Shown here: piece after piece, positions 6,723 through 15,591 of the stretch
Numbering within the stretch: the first letter of the stretch is position 1
Layout of the letters: each line of letters starts with the position of its first letter
Assembly (NCBI GenBank): GCA_903854795.1
Contig: CAINXF010000163.1
Coordinates: forward strand, 1-21,373
Direction: 5' to 3'
Length of the DNA: 21,373 nucleotides
Origin: Candidatus Kerfeldbacteria bacterium
GTDB taxonomy: Bacteria > Patescibacteriota > Patescibacteriia > SBBC01
Notes under the pieces: model-generated
What the model was told of the DNA's origin: nothing
Seen by the model: only the letters and a program-made list of their open reading frames with translations
Databases searched by the model: none
Made by a program: the position numbers and the translations under genes

Positions 6723-9700
6723 CTAGCGCAGACGGACGATCTTGCCCGTCGCGACCCGTCCGTTCATGACGAGCCGGACGAACAGGACGCCGGTCGGCGC
6801 TGCGTGGCCGTTATCGGTTGAACCGTTCCACCGGAACGCGTGGGCTCCAGCCGGTAGATCCCTCCATTGCCAGTACTTGATCTTGCGTCCCTGGACGTCA
6901 TAGATACTGAACGTCGCGGGAGCGCGGAACGGGGTGGAGAAACGGAACTCGACCGAGCCGATCGACGGGTTCGGCAGTGCCGGACCGAGACTGAATCGTG
7001 ACTGCGTGCCGAGGTCATCGACGGCGTTCACGTTCTGTCCGAGTACGATCGTCCTCGTGATTGTGTTATCGACGTAGCTCGACTCGCTCGGAACTGAGAA
7101 CGGGCTAACCACGACACTAACCACGTGCGTATCGGGAGCAGCGGCGTGCCAAAGCGCCGAAACGGTCTGCGATGCGCCAGAGTTGAGACTCAACGAATCA
7201 ACGCTGAACCGCGTCGACCCGTCGTAGAACTCCACCTTGACGTTGTTGACCGCGTCGACCCCGAGGTTCTGCACTGTCGCCGAGACGACAGCCGAGTCGC
7301 CCGCCACGATGAGATTCCGACCAACGGACACGTCGCCGACCATGGCGAGGTTGTTGATGTGCCGAAGCTCGAACATCGTCGCATCGATGTACGTCGAGCT
7401 GTCTGACAGCACGATTGCCTTCACGTCGACGCGGTACTGGCCGAGCGGTCCGGAGATCGGAACATCCGCTCCGAACACGCCGTCACCAGCTACGCCGTCG
7501 TTGTGACTACCATCATCGAACGCCGAAGCACTCGCCGTACTGCTGTCCGGCTTCGTCACCACGATGCTCCACGCCGATCCGGGAATAGCGGTCCCGGCAT
7601 CGTCGAGGTGCATTTTAAGGTGCGCCGAACCGGGCGAGTTCACCTCGGTCACATCCTGTTCGAGGACGACCTTCTTCGTGGTCACGACGACCACGGTGAC
7701 GGCATATCCCTGCGACTGCGCATAGGCCGAACCGTCGACCACGGCCTGCCACGTTCCCGACGAAGGATTGTCGAGCGTGTACACGCCAAGACCATTGTTC
7801 GCGTCCTCCACGTAGTGCAGCCACGCGTACGTCATCGTGTCCGCCGGTACGAGAAGCGTGCCGTTCGGCATCCGGAGCTTGAACGTCGCTCCGTCCGCCA
7901 CCATCGACACCTGGCACGACGGCGTACTCGGCACCATGAACGGTCGTTCGACCGTCTGGTTCGGCCCGAGATCACCGTCCTCCGACAGCACGATGCTCAT
8001 CACCGTATCGCCCTGCGCCGCGGTCTGCTGCGACCGGAACGCGAGTGATGGCGAAGAGTTCGAGCTAGTCGGCAGACTTCCTCCCGCGAGCAGGTTCTCG
8101 ATGATCGGGAAGAGGTCAGGAGAACCAGTAAGCGTCCCCGAGACGAGCAGCCCTGACGAGTACAGTAGCGGCTGCCAGAAATGTGCCTTTGGACCGAGCC
8201 CCAAGTTACCATCCGTGGCAAAATGGTCTACTCCATTGCAGTAGAGTCGAGCCGACGACGTTCCGACCAAACCGTCATTGGACTCCCCAGCTCCCCAGAT
8301 GAGCCCGGAGAAAGAGCTTACCGGGGGTCCAAACGGTAGTGTCCCAGCGAGTGCCCACTCCTTCAAGCCCGCATCGTACTGGTGATCGATCTCGGGACTG
8401 TGACTCCCCCCGCTGAAAGCACCGAGTACATCGTGACCATTCGGGTTCTGCGGACTGTTCGGATAGCCGTAGTTCAGTATGTTGATTGACTCCGAACCGG
8501 TCTGCAGATCTCCGATAGCGGGTCCCAATACGAGACAGGGTTCGACCTTACCGAGGTACCGTGCCAGCGTCTTGTTCTTATAGGCGAACGACGCGAGGTC
8601 TGACCCATGTTGTGGCGTACCCAGCGTGATGAGCGTCGCGATCCGGCTCCCGGACCGCTTCAGCCTCACATAGTGCCTTGTCACGAGCCCGCCCATGCTG
8701 TGCGCGACGACGTTGACCTTCTCGGCTCCTTCCTGCGTCACGATGTGCTCAAGCGCCGCGTCGATCTGCACCGAGAGCGCATTGATGTTCCCGTTGTTCG
8801 GCGTCAGGCTCGGATTGTAGACGCGGTAGCCGCGTTGTGTCAGGTACGTCGCGAAGTCATTCCACACACTTCCGTCCGAGCAGAGGCCATGAACCAGAAG
8901 AACAGGAAGCTTCCTCGGTTGAGGACTGAATTCCTGGACCCTGTAATTGTCTCTGTCAGTTACGAAGACGTTTTCGCTTGTATCCACTGCAATTCCCCAC
9001 GGGTTGCTGAACTGTCCGTTCCTCGTTCCTGGGCTTCCCCACTTCGTCAGGAACGTGCCCGTGTTCGTGAACTTCTGGATTCGGTTGTTGCCACTATCGG
9101 TTACGTACACATTGCCTGATTGGTCAGTCGCAACCGCATTTGGCCAGAGAAACTGACTATCTCCAGAACCCTGTACACCCCACTTCGTCAGAAACGTGCC
9201 CGTGTTCGTGAACTTCTGGATTCGGTTGTTAAAGCAGTCGACCACGAACACATTCCCATCCTTATCTATAGCGATCCCAGTCGGGTAATTGAACTGCCCA
9301 TCCCCTGTTCCTGAACTTCCCCACTTCGTCAGGAACGTGCCCGTGTTCGTGAACTTCTGAACACGGTTACTACTTGCATCAACGACAAATACGTTGCCCA
9401 AACCATCGACTGTCACCCCGTGTGGGTCCCTACACTGCTCATCTCCCGTTCCGTATCTGTCCCAGCGCATCAGGTACGTACCGTTGCTAGCGTACTTCCA
9501 AATCCCAACACACTCGATATCCGATATGTACGTAAAGCCTGATGCATCAACTGCAATTGCCTGTGGACCGCATAGGCCTGTCCACTTCGTCAGGAATGAT
9601 CCTGTGTTCGTGAATATTTCGACCATATAACGGTAACTATCCACGACGAATACATTTCCCGACTGGTCAAGAGCAACTCCATTCGGTTCTAGGAACTGTC

Positions 9701-9821
9701 CATCGCTCGTCCCGTGAGAACCCCACGCTCGCACAAACGTGGGCGGTTCTTCTGCGAAGACGGACGAGACGGACAGCAACAGCATTGTGACGAGTGCGAA
9801 CAGTATCGTGAAGCTCTTCAT
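6723..9821 (-). CDS. Secreted multidomain lipase: NHL propeller, alpha/beta hydrolase, CARDB, FlgD-like sorting domain
   Basis: A 1032-residue exported protein. Residues 1-24 are a signal peptide ending VFA, before EEPP. Six NHL repeats of about 47 residues (about 28-300; pattern P-x-G-(I/V)-A-(V/I)-D-x-x-G-N-V-(F/Y)-V-x-D) should form a six-bladed propeller. An alpha/beta hydrolase follows (about 305-560): PVLLVHGLCSDGSVW oxyanion region, nucleophile elbow AHSMGG with serine 375, and ESNDGLVG with a candidate acid. After 560 come a spacer, a region with DDGSHNDGVAGDGVFGAD like choice-of-anchor X domains (about 725-815), a CARDB-like Ig domain (about 830-930), and a C-terminal FlgD-like/type IX sorting type domain starting LPNPSIG with WNGSTDNG. 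ATG 9821 is chosen because AGGAGG lies 8 bases upstream and it begins the signal peptide. The gene stands alone between hairpins. Confidence 0.9.
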   Translation of the reverse strand: MKSFTILFALVTMLLLSVSSVFAEEPPTFVRAWGSHGTSDGQFLEPNGVALDQSGNVFVVDSYRYMVEIFTNTGSFLTKWTGLCGPQAIAVDASGFTYISDIECVGIWKYASNGTYLMRWDRYGTGDEQCRDPHGVTVDGLGNVFVVDASSNRVQKFTNTGTFLTKWGSSGTGDGQFNYPTGIAIDKDGNVFVVDCFNNRIQKFTNTGTFLTKWGVQGSGDSQFLWPNAVATDQSGNVYVTDSGNNRIQKFTNTGTFLTKWGSPGTRNGQFSNPWGIAVDTSENVFVTDRDNYRVQEFSPQPRKLPVLLVHGLCSDGSVWNDFATYLTQRGYRVYNPSLTPNNGNINALSVQIDAALEHIVTQEGAEKVNVVAHSMGGLVTRHYVRLKRSGSRIATLITLGTPQHGSDLASFAYKNKTLARYLGKVEPCLVLGPAIGDLQTGSESINILNYGYPNSPQNPNGHDVLGAFSGGSHSPEIDHQYDAGLKEWALAGTLPFGPPVSSFSGLIWGAGESNDGLVGTSSARLYCNGVDHFATDGNLGLGPKAHFWQPLLYSSGLLVSGTLTGSPDLFPIIENLLAGGSLPTSSNSSPSLAFRSQQTAAQGDTVMSIVLSEDGDLGPNQTVERPFMVPSTPSCQVSMVADGATFKLRMPNGTLLVPADTMTYAWLHYVEDANNGLGVYTLDNPSSGTWQAVVDGSAYAQSQGYAVTVVVVTTKKVVLEQDVTEVNSPGSAHLKMHLDDAGTAIPGSAWSIVVTKPDSSTASASAFDDGSHNDGVAGDGVFGADVPISGPLGQYRVDVKAIVLSDSSTYIDATMFELRHINNLAMVGDVSVGRNLIVAGDSAVVSATVQNLGVDAVNNVKVEFYDGSTRFSVDSLSLNSGASQTVSALWHAAAPDTHVVSVVVSPFSVPSESSYVDNTITRTIVLGQNVNAVDDLGTQSRFSLGPALPNPSIGSVEFRFSTPFRAPATFSIYDVQGRKIKYWQWRDLPAGAHAFRWNGSTDNGHAAPTGVLFVRLVMNGRVATGKIVRLR
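9037..9360 (-). repeat. 141-bp intragenic direct repeats coding NHL blades
   Basis: Near-identical segments begin with CCCCACTTCGTCAG at 9037, 9178 and 9319, exactly 141 bases (47 codons) apart. The first two match over about 53 bases with one difference; the third matches over about 41 bases. A diverged copy is at 9581. They code the QKFTNTGTFLTKWG segment of successive propeller blades. Identity at DNA level shows recent duplication or gene conversion. Confidence 0.85.
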
Positions 9822-9936
9822 GACCAAGACCTCCTGTTTCGAGACGCTTCGATGCATCGTTTCGTGTCGTCAGACAACAATACCCACTATTCAGTTGTCG
9901 ACGAACCATCGATAGACTACTTCCCCAAATATCAAA

Positions 9937-9978: not shown

Positions 9979-11076
9979 TTATTGCTCGTTCCAGCTACCT
10001 TGATGAAGGTTGTACGTCGTGATTATATCTTCAATGTGCTGGTAAATCTGCTGTAATGCCGTATTGTCTGGTGCGATAAATGAAAGTGGCTGGCCGGTAG
10101 TCGGATCCTTACTTGCAAGCGTTTCGAGGAGTGGTTTCGAATTTGGATTATAATGTGCGTTACCTTCGACGAAAACGTTGCCAAAACCAATCGTGATGAT
10201 ATGGATCCCCTGTGATTTTGCCTGCGAAGTAGCATCTATCGTACACTGAAATCCAGTCAAACATCCATCGTTTGGCACGCCATCAGTAAGTAAAATCTCA
10301 TACTGGTTTGAACCGTTTGCAGCGGGAAAATGGTCCTTTGCGAACGTGATAGCCGAAGCGATGTGGGTTGTGCCATCCGGAGGTGCTATCGCTTGGAGAG
10401 CATGGTTGATAACCAACTCATTGTCCGTTAACGGCTGGTACGACTGCCCATTTACCGGAAATACGTCGGAGCTGAAAGTCACCAATCCAATCTGATCATA
10501 TGAGGAATTCATAAAGTTTGAATTGAAATCAATTGCTGCCTTTTGAATGCTTACAAACGGCCTATCACCCCACAGTAATCCCGCAGCAAGGCAGTCGATT
10601 TGGTTCTTACCGGAATAGTCAGAACACCCGACGTGATCATCAGCCATACTACCCGAGCGATCAATCACATGAAAAATTTGTGTCTTGTGGTGAACTGTCT
10701 CTGGCCCCGCGCCAGAATAGCCCGACATAATTCCACGAAGTGTAGTTCCCGAAGTTCCTGCGCCCGTCAGTGTACCATCAGTAGAACCAGGGGAATTCGG
10801 TGTTACGGTAGCGGTACATGTTGCATCTCCAACAGCGAATGATCCGCCATGATATGTGGCATCGGTCCGGAGCTGCAGATACCCCTCTTCGACGCACGAC
10901 TGCGCCGCATAGAACGCCTGCTCGGTCGTCTTGCCGGCGCGCGCCGCGACCGCGGCCTGGAACACGCGCGTGTGGTCGCCGAACGCGAGGATCAGCATAG
11001 CCATCGACGTGAGGAACACGACCGTGAGCGTGATGTTGCCGTCCTGATTGTATGATGGCTTTTTCATATGATTCAT
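9979..11076 (-). CDS. Type IV pilus-associated protein with von Willebrand factor A domain
   Basis: A 365-residue protein, last in the pilus operon. The N-terminus (about 14-32) is one hydrophobic segment after a short basic start, as in PilX-like minor pilus proteins, followed by ARAGKTTEQAFYAAQSCVEE. Residues 130-355 form a VWA domain: IFHVIDRSGSMAD (134-146) is a complete MIDAS DxSxS, with DGTTH (234-238) and LLTDGVPNDG (262-271) as further metal-site loops. It is probably a surface or tip adhesin carried by the pilus; the ligand is unknown. The start ATG overlaps the PilW-like stop (ATGA). The first 72 codons are about two-thirds GC, the rest is about 47% by hand counts, so the VWA part probably has another origin. 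Confidence 0.85.
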   Translation of the reverse strand: MNHMKKPSYNQDGNITLTVVFLTSMAMLILAFGDHTRVFQAAVAARAGKTTEQAFYAAQSCVEEGYLQLRTDATYHGGSFAVGDATCTATVTPNSPGSTDGTLTGAGTSGTTLRGIMSGYSGAGPETVHHKTQIFHVIDRSGSMADDHVGCSDYSGKNQIDCLAAGLLWGDRPFVSIQKAAIDFNSNFMNSSYDQIGLVTFSSDVFPVNGQSYQPLTDNELVINHALQAIAPPDGTTHIASAITFAKDHFPAANGSNQYEILLTDGVPNDGCLTGFQCTIDATSQAKSQGIHIITIGFGNVFVEGNAHYNPNSKPLLETLASKDPTTGQPLSFIAPDNTALQQIYQHIEDIITTYNLHQGSWNEQ

Positions 11077-11555
11077 GACTGCCTGAACGCATAGACCGAT
11101 TCGAACGGCACGGTCACCGGCCCTTGCGTGAACGAAAGCATCACTTTGAGCGACGATGACACCACCTCGAACGGCGACAGCGAGGTGACGGAAGTGGCCG
11201 CGTTGGTCAACATATACAGGTCGGCCGCTGGTGTGACAGAGTTCTTCCCCGTGTAGAGCGCGCCGTCCTTGACCTGGAATGACGTAACGATCGGGTCCGG
11301 CGAACTGGGATCTTTTGCGTACACATCGATCCGCGTCCCAGGTACGTCGAGTTCGACGCGGTACGCGTTCCTGAGCGTATATGAAAGACGTCCTGAGACC
11401 GCGTCGATTTCGCTCTGGATGTTCTGCTGCTGCTTCGTATGCACGCGGACCTTCGTCGCCGCGGTCAAAAAGCTGGTCGAGGCAAGCACGACGATGCTCG
11501 AGAGCCCGAGGTAGAGCACGAGCTCGATGAGGGTGAACCCAGCACCACTTTTCAT
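11073..11555 (-). CDS. PilW-like minor pseudopilin
   Basis: A 160-residue prepilin with class III signal MKSGAG/FTLIELVLYLGL: cleavage by prepilin peptidase after Gly6 would leave Phe at +1 and Glu at +5. The hydrophobic helix runs to about residue 30; the remainder (KVRVHTKQQQNIQSEIDAVS and a beta-rich C-terminus) resembles PilW/GspJ-type minor pilins. The start is uncertain. ATG 11555 gives a normal leader, but the frame is open back to ATG 11681, which overlaps the PilV-like stop (ATGA), and AAGGGG sits 7 bases before ATG 11675. The longer form would have a leader of about 40 residues crossing the left arm of the inverted-repeat element at 11537-11642. The right arm of that element covers codons 1-6 of the short form. 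Confidence 0.82.
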   Translation of the reverse strand: MKSGAGFTLIELVLYLGLSSIVVLASTSFLTAATKVRVHTKQQQNIQSEIDAVSGRLSYTLRNAYRVELDVPGTRIDVYAKDPSSPDPIVTSFQVKDGALYTGKNSVTPAADLYMLTNAATSVTSLSPFEVVSSSLKVMLSFTQGPVTVPFESVYAFRQS

Positions 11556-11642
11556 GTGGTCATTCGACGATGAAATACCAACTTTTTTCTTGACATTCCC
11601 TAATGCACACGCGAAACCTACCAGTGAAAAGTGGTGCTGGGT
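11537..11642 (-). repeat. 106-nt inverted-repeat element at the PilW-like gene start (copy 1)
   Basis: Perfect 18-nt arms TGAAAAGTGGTGCTGGGT (plus strand 11625-11642; reverse complement at 11537-11554) enclose 70 bases. In the mRNA the right arm is the start of the gene (the TG of the ATG and the codons for KSGAG). The hairpin would therefore bury the initiation region. The same layout occurs at 12591-12696. Confidence 0.85.
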
Positions 11643-11677
11643 GAAGCCATGACAATTTTGAGGATTGCGTCGCATGG

Positions 11678-12181
11678 TCATTCCCCTTTCCAATTCGTGA
11701 GATACATGACGAGCGTTTCGGTACGATCGCGACCACGGTCGTTCCATTTCACCGTGACGGTCACCTTCCGCACGTTCGGATCAACGTGCGTGCCACTATC
11801 GGCGAGTTTTAGGGCATCGTCCCGCATGCCTGCGGTCATCACAATTGTCCTCGTAAATCCTTCGATCAGTTCACCTGTCGCGGTCGGGTCAGGGGCCATG
11901 ACGTAATGCGGCGTCGGCACCGCGACGGTCGTGAGCGTGTAGTACGAGTTCGGGCTCGTGAGTGCCACGCCGATCCATGTGTTCTGCTTAATCGCGATCA
12001 CCTGCTCCATCGCTTCACGGGTCAACGCGACCGCGCGGGTTTCTAAACTCGTTGAGGTCACAACGCGCGCGTTCGCGACGATGATCCCGCCGATCGCGAC
12101 GCTGAACAGCGCGAACACGCCGACGGCCACGATGACCTCGAGGATGAGACTGCCACGCTGGTTGGCGCGTATCACGCTCAT
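11678..12181 (-). CDS. PilV-like minor pseudopilin
   Basis: A 167-residue prepilin-like protein starting MSVIRANQRG/SLILEVIVAVGVFALFSV. The leader is basic, ends in glycine, and Glu is at +5 of the mature chain, as required for pilin assembly. The hydrophobic helix spans about 11-33, followed by TSTSLETRAVALTREAMEQV, the usual alpha-helical spine of PilV/GspI-type minor pilins, and a beta-rich C-terminal part. ATG 12181 overlaps the stop of the upstream pseudopilin (ATGA), and its own stop overlaps the next frame in the same way, so the minor pilins are translationally chained. It is likely part of the priming complex at the pilus tip, judged by the family. Confidence 0.85.
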   Translation of the reverse strand: MSVIRANQRGSLILEVIVAVGVFALFSVAIGGIIVANARVVTSTSLETRAVALTREAMEQVIAIKQNTWIGVALTSPNSYYTLTTVAVPTPHYVMAPDPTATGELIEGFTRTIVMTAGMRDDALKLADSGTHVDPNVRKVTVTVKWNDRGRDRTETLVMYLTNWKGE

Positions 12182-12630
12182 GAACCCGCCTCCTCGACCG
12201 AACCAGCCTCGGTCACAGTGATCGTCTTCGTGCCAACGTCCGGCATGGTGACGACGAATGTCGCCGTTGCCATGGGTGCGCCGGTCAACTTCGCAAATGC
12301 GACGTCGGTGCTGCCCGTGCACACCACCAATTCGGACATCGTTACGGTCCGTTCGGGCACCGCCGAAGGCACGGCATACTGGGACACCGTATCGCCAGCA
12401 CACTGCAACTTCCATGACGCACCTTTTTCTGCGGCGATCGACAGACGTTGCGTATCACGGATCATGCCGACGAGCACATCCGCCTGACTATCGAGCGCGG
12501 CATGGCGTCGTGACGCCTGATAGCCAGTGAAGGCCATCGTCCCGAGTATGCCCAACACCGCGATCACGATCAACATTTCCATCATCGTGAATCCCGCACC
12601 ACTTTTTAACTTGTTATTCGAAGGATACAT
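12178..12630 (-). CDS. GspH/FimT-like pseudopilin
   Basis: A 150-residue prepilin with signal LKSGAG/FTMMEMLIVIAVLGIL: predicted cleavage after Gly13, Phe at +1 and Glu at +5. The helix continues to about residue 35, followed by TGYQASRRHAALDSQADVLV and a C-terminal beta domain with a cysteine pair, like GspH/FimT. ATG 12630 is chosen. The frame is also open to ATG 12747, inside the end of pilC, which would give a leader of about 52 residues crossing the left arm of the inverted-repeat element at 12591-12696. There is no strong SD at ATG 12630 (AAGG lies 12 bases away), so translation may depend on coupling or on the leader structure. Confidence 0.82.
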   Translation of the reverse strand: MYPSNNKLKSGAGFTMMEMLIVIAVLGILGTMAFTGYQASRRHAALDSQADVLVGMIRDTQRLSIAAEKGASWKLQCAGDTVSQYAVPSAVPERTVTMSELVVCTGSTDVAFAKLTGAPMATATFVVTMPDVGTKTITVTEAGSVEEAGS

Positions 12631-12696
12631 GACGGTTTGTTGCCTTATTACACTAATCGCGTTCGTAAAATATCTTACTAAAAAGTGGTGCGGGAT
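12591..12696 (-). repeat. 106-nt inverted-repeat element at the GspH-like gene start (copy 2)
   Basis: Perfect 18-nt arms TAAAAAGTGGTGCGGGAT (plus strand 12679-12696; reverse complement at 12591-12608) enclose exactly 70 bases, the same geometry as copy 1. The right arm codes for LKSGAG, the end of the prepilin leader up to the cleavage glycine. The left arm lies 26 bases after the pilC stop. The loop carries the candidate start ATG 12630 and a small GTAA/TTAC inverted repeat. Confidence 0.85.
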
Positions 12697-12722
12697 GAAT
12701 CCACGCTGGCCGGCCGACTTGG

Positions 12723-13931
12723 TTATATGACGTTCGCGAAGTTCCATAACGGCAACATTACCGACGCGACGATGCCCGCAACGACCGCGGCCGTGCAAAG
12801 CAACAGTATCGGCTCGAGGTACGTCGAAAGGTTCGCGGTCCATTGCTGGATGTCGTCGTCGTAGTACCGCGCGACGCGCTCGAACATCTCGTCAAGGTTA
12901 CCAGTCTGCTCGCCGGTCACGATCATCTTATAGAAGACCGGCAGGAACAGCTCGGGATTGCCCCGGAACACGTCACGGAGCTTCACGCCACGTCGGACGA
13001 ACGACTGCGCGGCTGAGAGCGCATAGCGGTAGACCGCGTTGTGGGCGACCGAGCTCGTGAGCGCAAGACTCTCGTCGAACGATACGCCGGCGTGGCTCAA
13101 CATACCGAGCGAACGGCTGATGATGACCAGGTCGATCTTCTTCGCGACCGGTCCGATGAGCGGCATCGAGAGCGTCCAGCGATGCATGAACATCTGGAAA
13201 CGCGGGGACTTACGGACCAAAATACGTAATCCAATAATCACCGCAATGAGCGCCGCGAGCGCATACGCGCCGTACGACGTGATCCAATGGCTCGTGGCGA
13301 TGAGAATCCTTGTTGTCAGCGGCAGCGTGACGTTCGCCTCGTCGTACACCGTCGAGATCTTCGGGATGACGAACAGCATCATCAACACGACCATCACGCA
13401 CATCGTCACGATGATGAGCACCGGGTACGCGAGCGCACCTCGGATGCGGCGCATGAGGCGCATGTCATTCTCCTGCTGACGCGCGAGAAACTCGAGAACA
13501 TCGACGAGCTTGCCGCCACGTTCACCGACACGGACCATGGCGCGGTACACGGAAGGAAACACCGAGGAGTAGCGATCGAACGCCGCGGAAAGTGGCTGAC
13601 CTGATTCGACCGACCGTTCGACCTCGCCGATGATACGTTTGAGCGCGGGGTTCGACGTCTGGTCCTTGCACGAGGCGAGCGCATCCGTGAGCGAAAGCCC
13701 CGCGCGCATCATCGTCATCAGGTTTCTCGTGAACAGCGCGCGGTCCATCGAGGTCACACGGCGCTGGAGCAGCTGCCGGACCTTCGATGGCCCGACGATC
13801 TTCGAAATCGTAACCACCGTGAGGTTATTATGCTCAAGCCGGTGCTGTGCACGGGAACGGTTGACGCCCTTAATAAGGCCGTGCTGTATTGTGTTAGAAA
13901 CATCGAGGGCAGTATATTCGAACGTGCTCAT
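12723..13931 (-). CDS. pilC: Type IV pilus inner-membrane platform protein PilC (GspF family)
   Basis: The 402-residue polytopic protein is the platform that links the cytoplasmic motor to the growing pilus. After an N-terminal lead (MSTFEYTALDVSNTIQHG) there are two T2SSF domains: one at about 62-190 with FTRNLMTMMRAGLSLTDALA and VGERGGKLVDVLEFLA, and one at about 265-390 with ISRSLGMLSHAGVSFDESLA and VTGEQTGNLDEMFERVA. Membrane segments are near 165-190, 215-240 and 370-395. Length is normal. ATG 13931 gives the usual family N-terminus, 10 bases after pilB; a longer frame to 14006 is unlikely. The downstream pseudopilin follows with the copy 2 inverted repeat in between. Confidence 0.95.
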   Translation of the reverse strand: MSTFEYTALDVSNTIQHGLIKGVNRSRAQHRLEHNNLTVVTISKIVGPSKVRQLLQRRVTSMDRALFTRNLMTMMRAGLSLTDALASCKDQTSNPALKRIIGEVERSVESGQPLSAAFDRYSSVFPSVYRAMVRVGERGGKLVDVLEFLARQQENDMRLMRRIRGALAYPVLIIVTMCVMVVLMMLFVIPKISTVYDEANVTLPLTTRILIATSHWITSYGAYALAALIAVIIGLRILVRKSPRFQMFMHRWTLSMPLIGPVAKKIDLVIISRSLGMLSHAGVSFDESLALTSSVAHNAVYRYALSAAQSFVRRGVKLRDVFRGNPELFLPVFYKMIVTGEQTGNLDEMFERVARYYDDDIQQWTANLSTYLEPILLLCTAAVVAGIVASVMLPLWNFANVI

Positions 13932-13941
13932 ACGTGGAAAA

Positions 13942-15591
13942 TTATTGAGTTGTTCTGATGACCTCTTCGAGCGTTGTCTCGTGCGCGGCCACCTTCGTGA
14001 AACCATGGTCGCGGATCGTCTTCATGCCGTGATGCGTCGCAATCGCTTCGATGTCATGCGCATTCGCGTGCGACATGATCGCGTCATGGAACCGTCCGTC
14101 GACGACGATCGTCTCATAGATGCCGGTACGGCCACGATGGCCAGTACCGAGGCACTGGTCGCATCCCGCGCCAGTGGCGGCGGATGTGACGACATCACGA
14201 TACGGTGCCGGTAGCGTCGACTGGTCGATGATCTGCGCGCAGGACGCACATACGCGGCGGACGAGACGCTGACCGACGATCGCGCGGAGCGTCGACGCAA
14301 CAAGGTACGGCTCGATGCCCATGTCGATGAGGCGTGTGATCGCCGCGGATGCGCTGTTCGTGTGCAACGACGAGAGCACGAGATGGCCAGTGAGCGCGGC
14401 GTTCACCGCGATCTGCGCGGTTTCCTTATCGCGTATTTCGCCGACCATGATGATGTCAGGGTCCTGACGCAGGATCGAACGCAGACCTTCGGAGAACGTC
14501 AAGCCGACCTGTGGGTTGACCTGGACCTGGTTGACGCCGGTCACATGGTACTCGATCGGGTCCTCGATCGTCGATAGGTTGATGTGCTTCTGCTGCAGTT
14601 CGTTCAAAAGCGCGTAGAGCGTCGTGGTCTTTCCTGAACCGGTCGGACCGGTCACGAGGATGAGCCCATGCGTGTTACCGATAGATTTGCGGAGCGTCGT
14701 AAGGTCACCGGACGAAAGCCCGATCGTGTCGAGCGTGAGCGACGCTGCGTTCGTGTCGAGGAACCGCAACGCCGCCTTCGGACCGTAGAGCGTCGGTATG
14801 ATCGACACGCGGATCGCGACGTTCTCGCCGTTCTCGGAGAACGTGAAGCGGCCGTCCTGCGGGCGGAGGTTCTCGTCGATGCGGAGGTGCGAGAGGATCT
14901 TGATACGTGCGACGACCGGCGCGAGGAGCGCGTGTGGTAACCTGAACATCTCGTGAAGCAGTCCATCAATACGGAACCGCAACATCACAAAATCATCACC
15001 CGGTTCTATGTGAAGGTCGCTGGCGGACGAACGAAGCGCGAAGGCAATCAGATGGTTCAACAGCTTCACCACGGGCATTTCCATCGCCATCGCCTCGGGG
15101 TTACCCGTGAAGCTTTCGGCACGACCGATGAGCTGCTGGATCTGCTCGCGGCTGTCCTCGGCCGACTGGTCGAACGCGGCGGAAAGCACCTGCATGATCG
15201 CGCTCTTCTGCGCGAGGAACGGGATCACGCGCCGCTGGAGCCGCTGCGACGCATACGCGATGAGCTTCGGGTTATCGGTGTTCTCCATGGCGATCGCCAC
15301 ATCATGTTCGTTCGCGAGGAACGGGACGGCCACGTGCTCGAAACACATCTCACGTGGCAGCAAACGCGCCGTATTGAGGTCGATGTCCTCGACCGTAAGG
15401 TCGACGACCGGCACTTTGTACGTATCGCGAAGCATCGGAATAACCGTGCCCGACGAAGCGATCCGTTCTGAGAATATGAAATCCAGCACGTTACCGCCGC
15501 TCATCCGTTCGAAATCACGGAGCTTCGGCAACGCGCGCTTGTTGAGTACGCCTTCTTTCTGGAGGATGTCGACTACGTTTTTCGCGACCAT
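13942..15591 (-). CDS. pilB: Type IV pilus assembly ATPase PilB (GspE family)
   Basis: The 549-residue hexameric motor drives pilus extension. The N-terminal MshEN/T2SSE_N-type domain covers about 45-140. The ATPase domain follows, with Walker A GPTGSGKTTT (315-324), Asp box IEDPIEYHVTGVNQVQVN (342-359), Walker B IIMVGEIRD (380-388) and His box TGHLVLSSLHTN (401-412). Four cysteines (448, 451, 477, 480: CASC and CDQC) form the zinc site seen in PilB/GspE extension motors but not in the retraction ATPase PilT. The start is ATG 15591, first gene after the promoter at 15629-15657. No pilT, pilM-O, pilQ or prepilin peptidase is seen nearby, so these must be elsewhere if present. Confidence 0.97.
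   Translation of the reverse strand: MVAKNVVDILQKEGVLNKRALPKLRDFERMSGGNVLDFIFSERIASSGTVIPMLRDTYKVPVVDLTVEDIDLNTARLLPREMCFEHVAVPFLANEHDVAIAMENTDNPKLIAYASQRLQRRVIPFLAQKSAIMQVLSAAFDQSAEDSREQIQQLIGRAESFTGNPEAMAMEMPVVKLLNHLIAFALRSSASDLHIEPGDDFVMLRFRIDGLLHEMFRLPHALLAPVVARIKILSHLRIDENLRPQDGRFTFSENGENVAIRVSIIPTLYGPKAALRFLDTNAASLTLDTIGLSSGDLTTLRKSIGNTHGLILVTGPTGSGKTTTLYALLNELQQKHINLSTIEDPIEYHVTGVNQVQVNPQVGLTFSEGLRSILRQDPDIIMVGEIRDKETAQIAVNAALTGHLVLSSLHTNSASAAITRLIDMGIEPYLVASTLRAIVGQRLVRRVCASCAQIIDQSTLPAPYRDVVTSAATGAGCDQCLGTGHRGRTGIYETIVVDGRFHDAIMSHANAHDIEAIATHHGMKTIRDHGFTKVAAHETTLEEVIRTTQ

Follow-up and report, generated by a model that had tools for sequence, protein, structure and literature searches.

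Two inverted repeats at the starts of two pilin genes in the window (the whole stretch analysed, 21,373 nucleotides of DNA from Candidatus Kerfeldbacteria) are likely short copies of a mobile element whose long form encodes a GIY-YIG nuclease. The copies appear to have landed on the codons of the prepilin cleavage site and to supply each pilin with a replacement leader. Comparison of the sequences directly shows the element's ends and target duplications, its dispersal and the target it prefers, orthologues that lack it, reading frames that stay open, fusions of nuclease and pilin, and rebuilding of the 5' end of rmlB.

The pilin operon and its two repeats

The window contains a minus-strand type II/IV pilus operon in the order ATPase, platform protein, pilin 1, pilin 2 and pilin 3. 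Pilins 1 and 3 each carry one repeat. The features of the operon, with the evidence for each, are as follows.

13942 to 15591, minus strand: T2SSE-type assembly ATPase (PF00437)
12723 to 14006, minus strand: T2SSF-type (GspF/PilC) platform protein, longest ORF, 3' end overlapping the old pilin 1 start (PF00482)
12178 to 12747, minus strand: pilin 1 with in-frame insertion (ORF, domain search, orthologue comparison)
12697 to 12747, minus strand: original start and leader of pilin 1, MELRERHITKSAGQRGF (G005 has MEPRQRHQLTVLRPAF joined directly to TMIEV)
12696 to 12699, minus strand: copy 2 target duplication, upstream side, TTCA (sequence)
12592 to 12695, minus strand: copy 2, 104-nt element (TCCCGCACCACTTTTTA ... 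TAAAAAGTGGTGCGGGA) in pilin gene 1 (repeat search, script, flank comparison)
12592 to 12606, minus strand: copy 2 element end, read as K-S-G-A-G (translation)
12588 to 12591, minus strand: copy 2 target duplication, downstream side, TTCA (sequence)
11678 to 12181, minus strand: pilin 2, same operon, without element; its cleavage region, G-S-L, offers no GGNTTNAC (ORF, sequence)
11073 to 11681, minus strand: pilin 3 with in-frame insertion, 202 aa; the database protein begins at the original ATG (ORF; N_methyl domain just under cut-off)
11643 to 11681, minus strand: original start and leader of pilin 3, MTMRRNPQNCHGF, upstream of the insertion (ORF; the element-free G021 orthologue starts at the matching place)
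11642 to 11645, minus strand: copy 1 target duplication, upstream side, TTCA on the minus strand (sequence)
11538 to 11641, minus strand: copy 1, 104-nt element (CCCAGCACCACTTTTCA ... TGAAAAGTGGTGCTGGG) in pilin gene 3 (repeat search, script, flank comparison)
11538 to 11552, minus strand: copy 1 element end, forming the new leader end K-S-G-A-G, with cleavage expected before Phe codon 11535-11537 (translation)
11534 to 11537, minus strand: copy 1 target duplication, downstream side, TTCA, coding for Phe+1 and the first base of Thr+2 (sequence)

Pilin 2 has no Pfam match and is named from its own sequence and its orthologues. In both copies the frame is open from the original ATG through the element, giving leaders of 48 and 52 residues. 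Used as a database query, the N-terminal part of window pilin 3 matched only the window's own protein. The operon is closed by a VWA-domain protein (PF00092; 9979-11076, minus strand) with an N-terminus that is hydrophobic by eye, and positions 6723-9857 (minus strand) encode a protein of 1044 residues that combines NHL repeats and a lipase-like domain with CARDB/FlgD-like parts at the C-terminus.

The sequence-only reading had described perfect 18-nt arms around 70 nt on two pilin starts, and a repeat search and a separate script agree on this geometry. The arms of copy 1 lie at 11537-11554 and 11625-11642 and those of copy 2 at 12591-12608 and 12679-12696, with 18 nt per arm, 100% complementarity and 70 nt between the arms in each case. 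No further perfect inverted repeats were found in the 21.4-kb window (arms of at least 12 nt, loop of 10-150 nt). Matched arm changes at three positions had also been claimed, and comparison of the two copies confirms them at positions 2, 14 and 17 of the plus-strand right arm, with positions 2, 5 and 17 of the left arm as their partners. These covarying arms need no selection on RNA, because the ends vary from one element subfamily to another, while the two ends of any one copy agree with each other. The 70-nt loops, described earlier as strongly diverged, are indeed diverged, yet they are related: ungapped identity is 46% against a shuffle mean of 26%, and none of 1000 shuffles reached as high a value. 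The predicted RNA folds of the two copies have energies of -45.8 and -37.1 kcal/mol (z -6.9 and -6.7; 0/200 shuffles as good).

The outermost base of each arm is part of the duplicated target, leaving an element proper of 104 nt (11538-11641 and 12592-12695). Its gene-side end reads AAA AGT GGT GC[T/G] GG[G/A], which translates as K-S-G-A-G, and the duplicated target then contributes F-T; the right arm thus holds the leader codons up to the cleavage glycine, as had been proposed. The cleavage site before Phe codon 11535-11537 of pilin 3 is one that we assume by analogy with prepilins. It had further been remarked that coding need does not explain the left arm. This still holds, and the explanation put forward here is that the left arm is the other end of the insertion, with the old leader beyond it. 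Consequently, the invertible DNA switch that had been suggested is not needed to account for this arm. Although the arms are inverted and inversion would alter the starts, they correspond to the ends of a family of elements that is flanked by direct duplications, and a switch has next to no probability.

Element-free orthologues and other pilin insertions

In the window pilins, the old start and leader are followed by the element, a repeated TTC A and the mature pilin. The orthologue of pilin 1 in genome G005 is uninterrupted (MEPRQRHQLTVLRPAFTMIEV), as is the orthologue of pilin 3 in G021 (MTLIRKNEKGITLAELVVYLG), the orthology having been assigned by BLAST over the mature parts (E 1e-18 and 6e-25). 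Relatives without the left arm, which the earlier reading would have taken as a sign of chance or of a decaying duplication, do exist: the whole element is absent from pilin 1 of G005 and from pilins 1 and 3 of G021. Here these relatives support insertion. A chance or decaying local duplication of leader codons would suit the presence of the repeat in two genes of one operon, but it is hardly credible in the face of dispersed homologues with matched ends and zero control matches.

Other pilin genes carry related insertions. Pilin 3 of G005 has an element copy of its own, 71 nt long, and a third case in the window's genome is a 53-nt in-frame insertion of the same family at another pilin (G000:C176:1603-1655). 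The surrounding stretch, G000:C176:741-1655 (L322), holds a prepilin peptidase gene followed directly by the pilin with the 53-nt insertion. A scripted table lists 24 pilin insertions, in 14 genomes by hand count. The 4-nt duplication is exact in 14/24 and has at most one mismatch in 20/24. Eight of the 24 are in frame, seven of them open from the old leader into the pilin and one with a stop; the seven compare with 1.7 expected by chance (P 0.002). By the scripted boundaries the other 16 are out of frame, including L100 and L164, where the boundary is one base off, and such insertions would need a start inside the element. The new pilin leader in G035 reads MDFHPKKFPTQKESSLLKSGAG.

Nested copies, observed at L121, L160 and L219 (with stretches of N in the assembled sequence at L121 and L160), are what one would expect if each insertion restores the target on either side of the element. 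Copies with a CCGAG or similar end are found at pilins in 0/15 cases and Gly-ended copies in 10/76, counts that are too small and too clustered to serve as a test; a CCGAG end would put Arg at -1 of the pilin.

Target site and duplication

The duplication has also been probed across the short copies as a whole. A 4-nt direct repeat just outside the CC..GCACCAC end is exact in 33/107 copies, against 4.1 expected from permutations, while the remaining 74 have no exact duplication. A 2-nt duplication was suspected at first and was replaced by 4 nt after alternative boundaries had been compared. The duplicated sequence is TTNA or its complement in 32 of the 33 exact cases.

For the flanking bases, the 29 non-pilin sites with an exact duplication were reduced to 27 by setting aside the array locus L160 and one non-TTNA site. 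GG occupies -3,-2 in 12/27 (background 6.0%, p = 1.7e-8) and C follows TTNA in 19/27 (background 17%, p = 2e-9). Both features are present in 11/27 against a background of 1.2% (p 6e-15), with the caveat that sites in the same genome are not independent. By these counts the preferred insertion target is GGNTTNAC. The pilin codons Gly(-1)-Phe(+1)-Thr(+2), GGN TTY ACN, match it.

Dispersal of the short form

The two-arm pattern has matches in 13/380 genomes of the class, and the control pattern has 0 in all; two of the 13, G107 and G316, look like chance matches (one strand only, no extended ends). Several genomes of the class hold many dispersed copies, and 33 inverted-end pairs lie in the 937 kb read of G035. 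GTDB contigs, scanned for a single spelling of the ends, gave at least 117 loci, mostly labelled Patescibacteria and some with other labels. A pattern search of the phylum matched 1/379 genomes, an undercount as its gap was too short for 104-nt copies. A wider-gap search in the class matched 7/380 genomes with a pattern that also matches GGNTTYAC outside pilins. A scan of IMG/VR for the element gave one contig.

Lengths of the short copies peak at 102-106 nt with variable interiors, and most are about 104 nt without a gene. A mechanical ORF count for 115 copies found no ORF of 90 aa at 58, a small ORF at 9 and an ORF reaching at least 240 nt past the copy at 48; because so many touch a long ORF, "between genes" is not a general description of their position. 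Short copies lie within 16S rRNA gene matches (L085, L124), and one is in frame within a histidine phosphatase gene (L069). Putative insertions in RNase P RNA were read by eye from the flanks at L091, L130 and L357, but Rfam at gathering scores called no RNase P there, and these cases are not claimed.

These dispersed copies, together with the target duplications and the element-free orthologues, bear out the suggestion of a small mobile element with terminal inverted repeats. They also bear on the earlier proposal of an mRNA hairpin at the pilin starts, of which the predicted fold is upheld and a dedicated translation switch is not. The strong fold, the perfect arms in both copies and possible starts in the loop would all suit a hairpin that controls minor-pilin translation, but the same element occurs outside pilins: among distinct CC-type-ended copies at the GTDB loci matched, 10/91 are on pilin starts and 81/91 have no adjoining pilin, with copies in 16S rRNA and phosphatase genes. 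Given also the target duplications and element-free orthologues, a dedicated hairpin is quite improbable. An incidental effect of the element on translation is possible.

The long form and its nuclease gene

Long forms of about 0.3 kb have ends that are the same as or similar to those of the short form and a single small GIY-YIG gene. Three pairs of terminal inverted repeats (TIRs) of 314-325 bp enclose a GIY-YIG ORF (L171, L286 and L135). The first two are the same place in one genome, with the frame broken by TGA, and L135 is in another genome and matches PF01541. The window copies are apparently stripped-down relatives of this nuclease-coding element.

A domain search of 12 element-bearing genomes gave 3-13 matches each, long UvrC-like proteins included, and a search with the nuclease protein across the class gave matches at E 1e-16 in 54/285 genomes. 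In the window's genome no close match to the element nuclease was found (none at E 1e-16) and no long form was seen. Sixty GIY-YIG loci were fetched, of which 44 were scored after removal of 3 duplicates, 12 without a recognised motif at the expected place and 1 off the end. Inverted arms of at least 12 nt surround the small GIY-YIG gene in 21/44 loci, compared with 2/146 control places in the same loci (p 9e-14); the other 23 have no flanking inverted repeat. Three of the 21 are doubtful on inspection, as the arms of L292 belong to short copies nearby, and L305 and L319 seem to be bounded by repeats of another kind. Arm-to-arm spans are 284-329 bp, with three exceptions of 390-521 bp. Exact 4-5-nt duplications flank 6/21 of the TIR-bounded genes, two of these being the same site in two related genomes.

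Some nuclease genes lie inside rRNA gene matches (16S in L295, L338 and L347; 23S in L345 and L352). Among 12 loci scanned, L085 and L338 gave group I intron calls, at places outside the short element and the nuclease gene. In the nuclease copies of G727 (L295, L308), TGA stands where relatives have the Trp of PW-LVYYEA; G727 may read TGA as Trp, or both copies may be broken.

The main alternative is a conventional MITE mobilised by a DDE transposase that has escaped notice, with the GIY-YIG genes as passengers between the same ends. Duplications of 4 nt and ends of 16 nt are typical of DDE elements and fit this proposal, as does the preponderance of copies of about 104 nt without a gene. However, among the end spellings searched, the gene found between such ends is GIY-YIG, with conserved catalytic residues. 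Unpaired ends (at most one mismatch) in the 937 kb of G035 form two longer pairs, of 167 and 131 bp, with no 150-aa ORF, and no DDE transposon sharing the element ends was seen there with the searched end spellings. Among the GTDB loci, two such pairs spanning 2-3.5 kb hold ORFs of at least 150 aa that by eye are not transposase-like. On this evidence a DDE-driven MITE is unlikely.

Nuclease-pilin fusions

Three genomes, G077, G512 and G359, have a nuclease ORF that reads on in frame into a pilin, and the two parts meet at the junction that the short copies also occupy. The G077 fusion has MVIDKKGF upstream, then the nuclease and KSGAG-FTLIELLLYIG; the G512 fusion has MRGF, the nuclease and KTGVG-FTLIEVMLAVV. 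The nuclease part and junction of G077, used as a database query, matched 131 proteins. Among the 120 matches listed, the pilin motif stands behind the nuclease part in 116 and G-A-G precedes the motif in 111; these counts are not a rate, because the query and length limits favour fusions.

In the fusion set (117 sequences), Y16, R26 and E62 are conserved at 99-100%, and in a 50-row alignment Y16, G18, R26 and E62 are invariant and N70 nearly so, residues among which we assume catalytic roles from knowledge of the family. Comparison of the 117 sequences, query included, shows that 5896 of 6404 nuclease-similar pairs have no detectable similarity in the pilin body; the nuclease has thus joined several different pilins. 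Single linkage sorts the pilin bodies into 11 groups, with 45 members in the largest, so the fusions are not all independent events. An AF2 model of one fusion (mean pLDDT 90) has a confident nuclease at about 1-80, a low-confidence linker at 90-108 and a confident pilin helix at 115-168. The solved folds nearest to the model are 1zg2 (UPF0213), I-TevI and Slx1, none at E <=0.001 for the whole model.

Rebuilding of other gene starts

A nuclease element also splits rmlB, the gene for dTDP-glucose 4,6-dehydratase (TIGR01181, E 3e-135 and 1e-140), in G005 and G006, which belong to the window's order. The left piece, which is cut off, reads MTKVLITGGAGF or MKLLVTGGAGF. To the right, the last codons of the element read MKKVLVTGGAG or MRLFVTGGAG and run on into FIGSN or FMGSN. 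The duplication at this site is TTCA in G006 and TTCA versus TTTA in G005. At L335 and L346, the tRNA-Tyr and tRNA-Ala called by ARAGORN have their first 2 and 4 bases inside the element (coordinates compared by hand). The theme shared by the non-pilin loci read is an apparent repair of the start of the interrupted gene, which is a reading of cases and not a count over all loci. The duplication made by a TIR-bounded GIY-YIG gene at L309 (about 1476-1793) is TATG, and it takes in what looks like the start codon of the gene that follows.

Proposed mechanism

The window repeats are presumably non-autonomous copies of an element whose long form, about 0.3 kb with terminal inverted repeats, has the GIY-YIG gene alone. 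Insertion would occur at GGNTTNAC with a 4-nt target duplication, and the site in pilins would be the codons Gly(-1)-Phe(+1)-Thr(+2). Because the element end codes for K-S-G-A-G in the frame set by the duplication, the leader with its cleavage glycine would be regained and the mature pilin left unchanged. Prepilin peptidase cuts pilin precursors at the leader glycine. The long leaders of the window pilins should be removed by this enzyme with a cut at K-S-G-A-G, a proposal based on the position of the junction and on established pilin biology. Both the long and short forms would be moved by the GIY-YIG nuclease in a homing-like manner; the nuclease is taken as the mover because these ends enclose its gene and because the residues it conserves point to an active site. 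Cleavage by known GIY-YIG homing enzymes produces 2-nt overhangs, so that a 4-nt duplication is not predicted by this assignment.

In its general form, we consider it probable that minimal elements of about 0.3 kb with GIY-YIG as their only gene home to conserved sequence near the 5' ends of genes and carry in their own end a copy of the sequence that they displace, be it a pilin leader, the start and glycine loop of rmlB or the opening bases of a tRNA. The nuclease in pilins would be made within the leader and cut off by the host prepilin peptidase without an intein, and the window copies would be gene-less offspring. If this is true, a mobile element avoids damaging its host in two ways, by restoring the start of each gene it enters and by making use of a signal peptidase. 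Such elements could account in part for the abundance of small GIY-YIG genes in Patescibacteria, for some of the non-intron rRNA insertions there and for odd long pilin leaders, and they bear on pilus annotation in these tiny bacteria.

Relation to known elements

Inteins likewise combine a tolerated insertion in a conserved gene with an endonuclease. In contrast, no self-splicing domain was found here, and removal would rely on the host prepilin peptidase. GIY-YIG homing endonucleases of the I-TevI type resemble the catalytic domain of the long form and the fusions (PF01541; conserved Y, R and E), a likeness that does not extend to the window copies. I-TevI is the best solved relative by sequence and the second by fold, after UPF0213 1zg2 (weak E-values). 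Unlike enzymes of that type, the nucleases here have no intron or intein location; they are fused to pilins or TIR-bounded, and the 5' end of the host gene is rebuilt in the cases read.

The MITEs RUP, ERIC and Correia have a similar size, paired ends and a high copy number. The short copies share the features of MITEs in being short and non-coding, with terminal inverted repeats and a target-site duplication (33/107 vs 4.1; 14/24 at pilins). They differ from MITEs such as RUP, ERIC and Correia, which are named in excerpts of PMC10969869, in that no parent DDE transposon was seen (937 kb of G035) and coding sequence is restored.

The nearest described elements, as far as the excerpts of these sources go, are the Rickettsia palindromic elements, palindromic repeats of about 100-150 bp that lie in frame within protein-coding genes (PMC10969869, PMC3767692). 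The likeness, drawn from their description, is in size and in-frame insertion in ORFs, seen here in the window copies, at 7/24 pilin sites and in the histidine phosphatase gene of L069. The elements here differ in their defined ends, 4-nt duplications, target motif, recurrent use of the prepilin cleavage site and nuclease-coding long form. GIY-YIG ORFs have also been described in rRNA genes of CPR bacteria, in insertions resembling neither group I nor group II introns (Tsurumaki 2024, PMC11270868), and several TIR-bounded copies here lie within rRNA genes. The main text of that paper makes no mention of inverted ends, palindromes or pilins; inverted ends and targets in pilin and other protein genes belong to the elements here. 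No literature joining GIY-YIG nucleases or MITEs to pilins was found in a search with thin coverage of subscription papers and preprints, and excerpts of PMC12455944 contain nothing on such elements.

Other palindromic repeats

Five 43-bp palindromes occur in G035 (L244 16959-17002, L249 18338-18381, L255 3787-3830, L264 4824-4867 and L283 12566-12609). They have the outer 11 nt of the element end, CCCCGCACCAC, with a different interior, one side of L283 having a changed base, and they are perhaps a second, shorter derivative. The DROJ01 loci (L061, L063, L064, L066, L071 and others), from a MAG labelled Bacteroidetes HyVt-532, hold many copies of about 105 bp with a different end, TATACTGCACCACTTTAGG, and may represent an unrelated or distant family. 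In the JALVSO genome (L079, L087, L148), CCGAG-ended copies lie between or near the halves of another palindrome, CCGGGATGAC / GTCATCCCGG.
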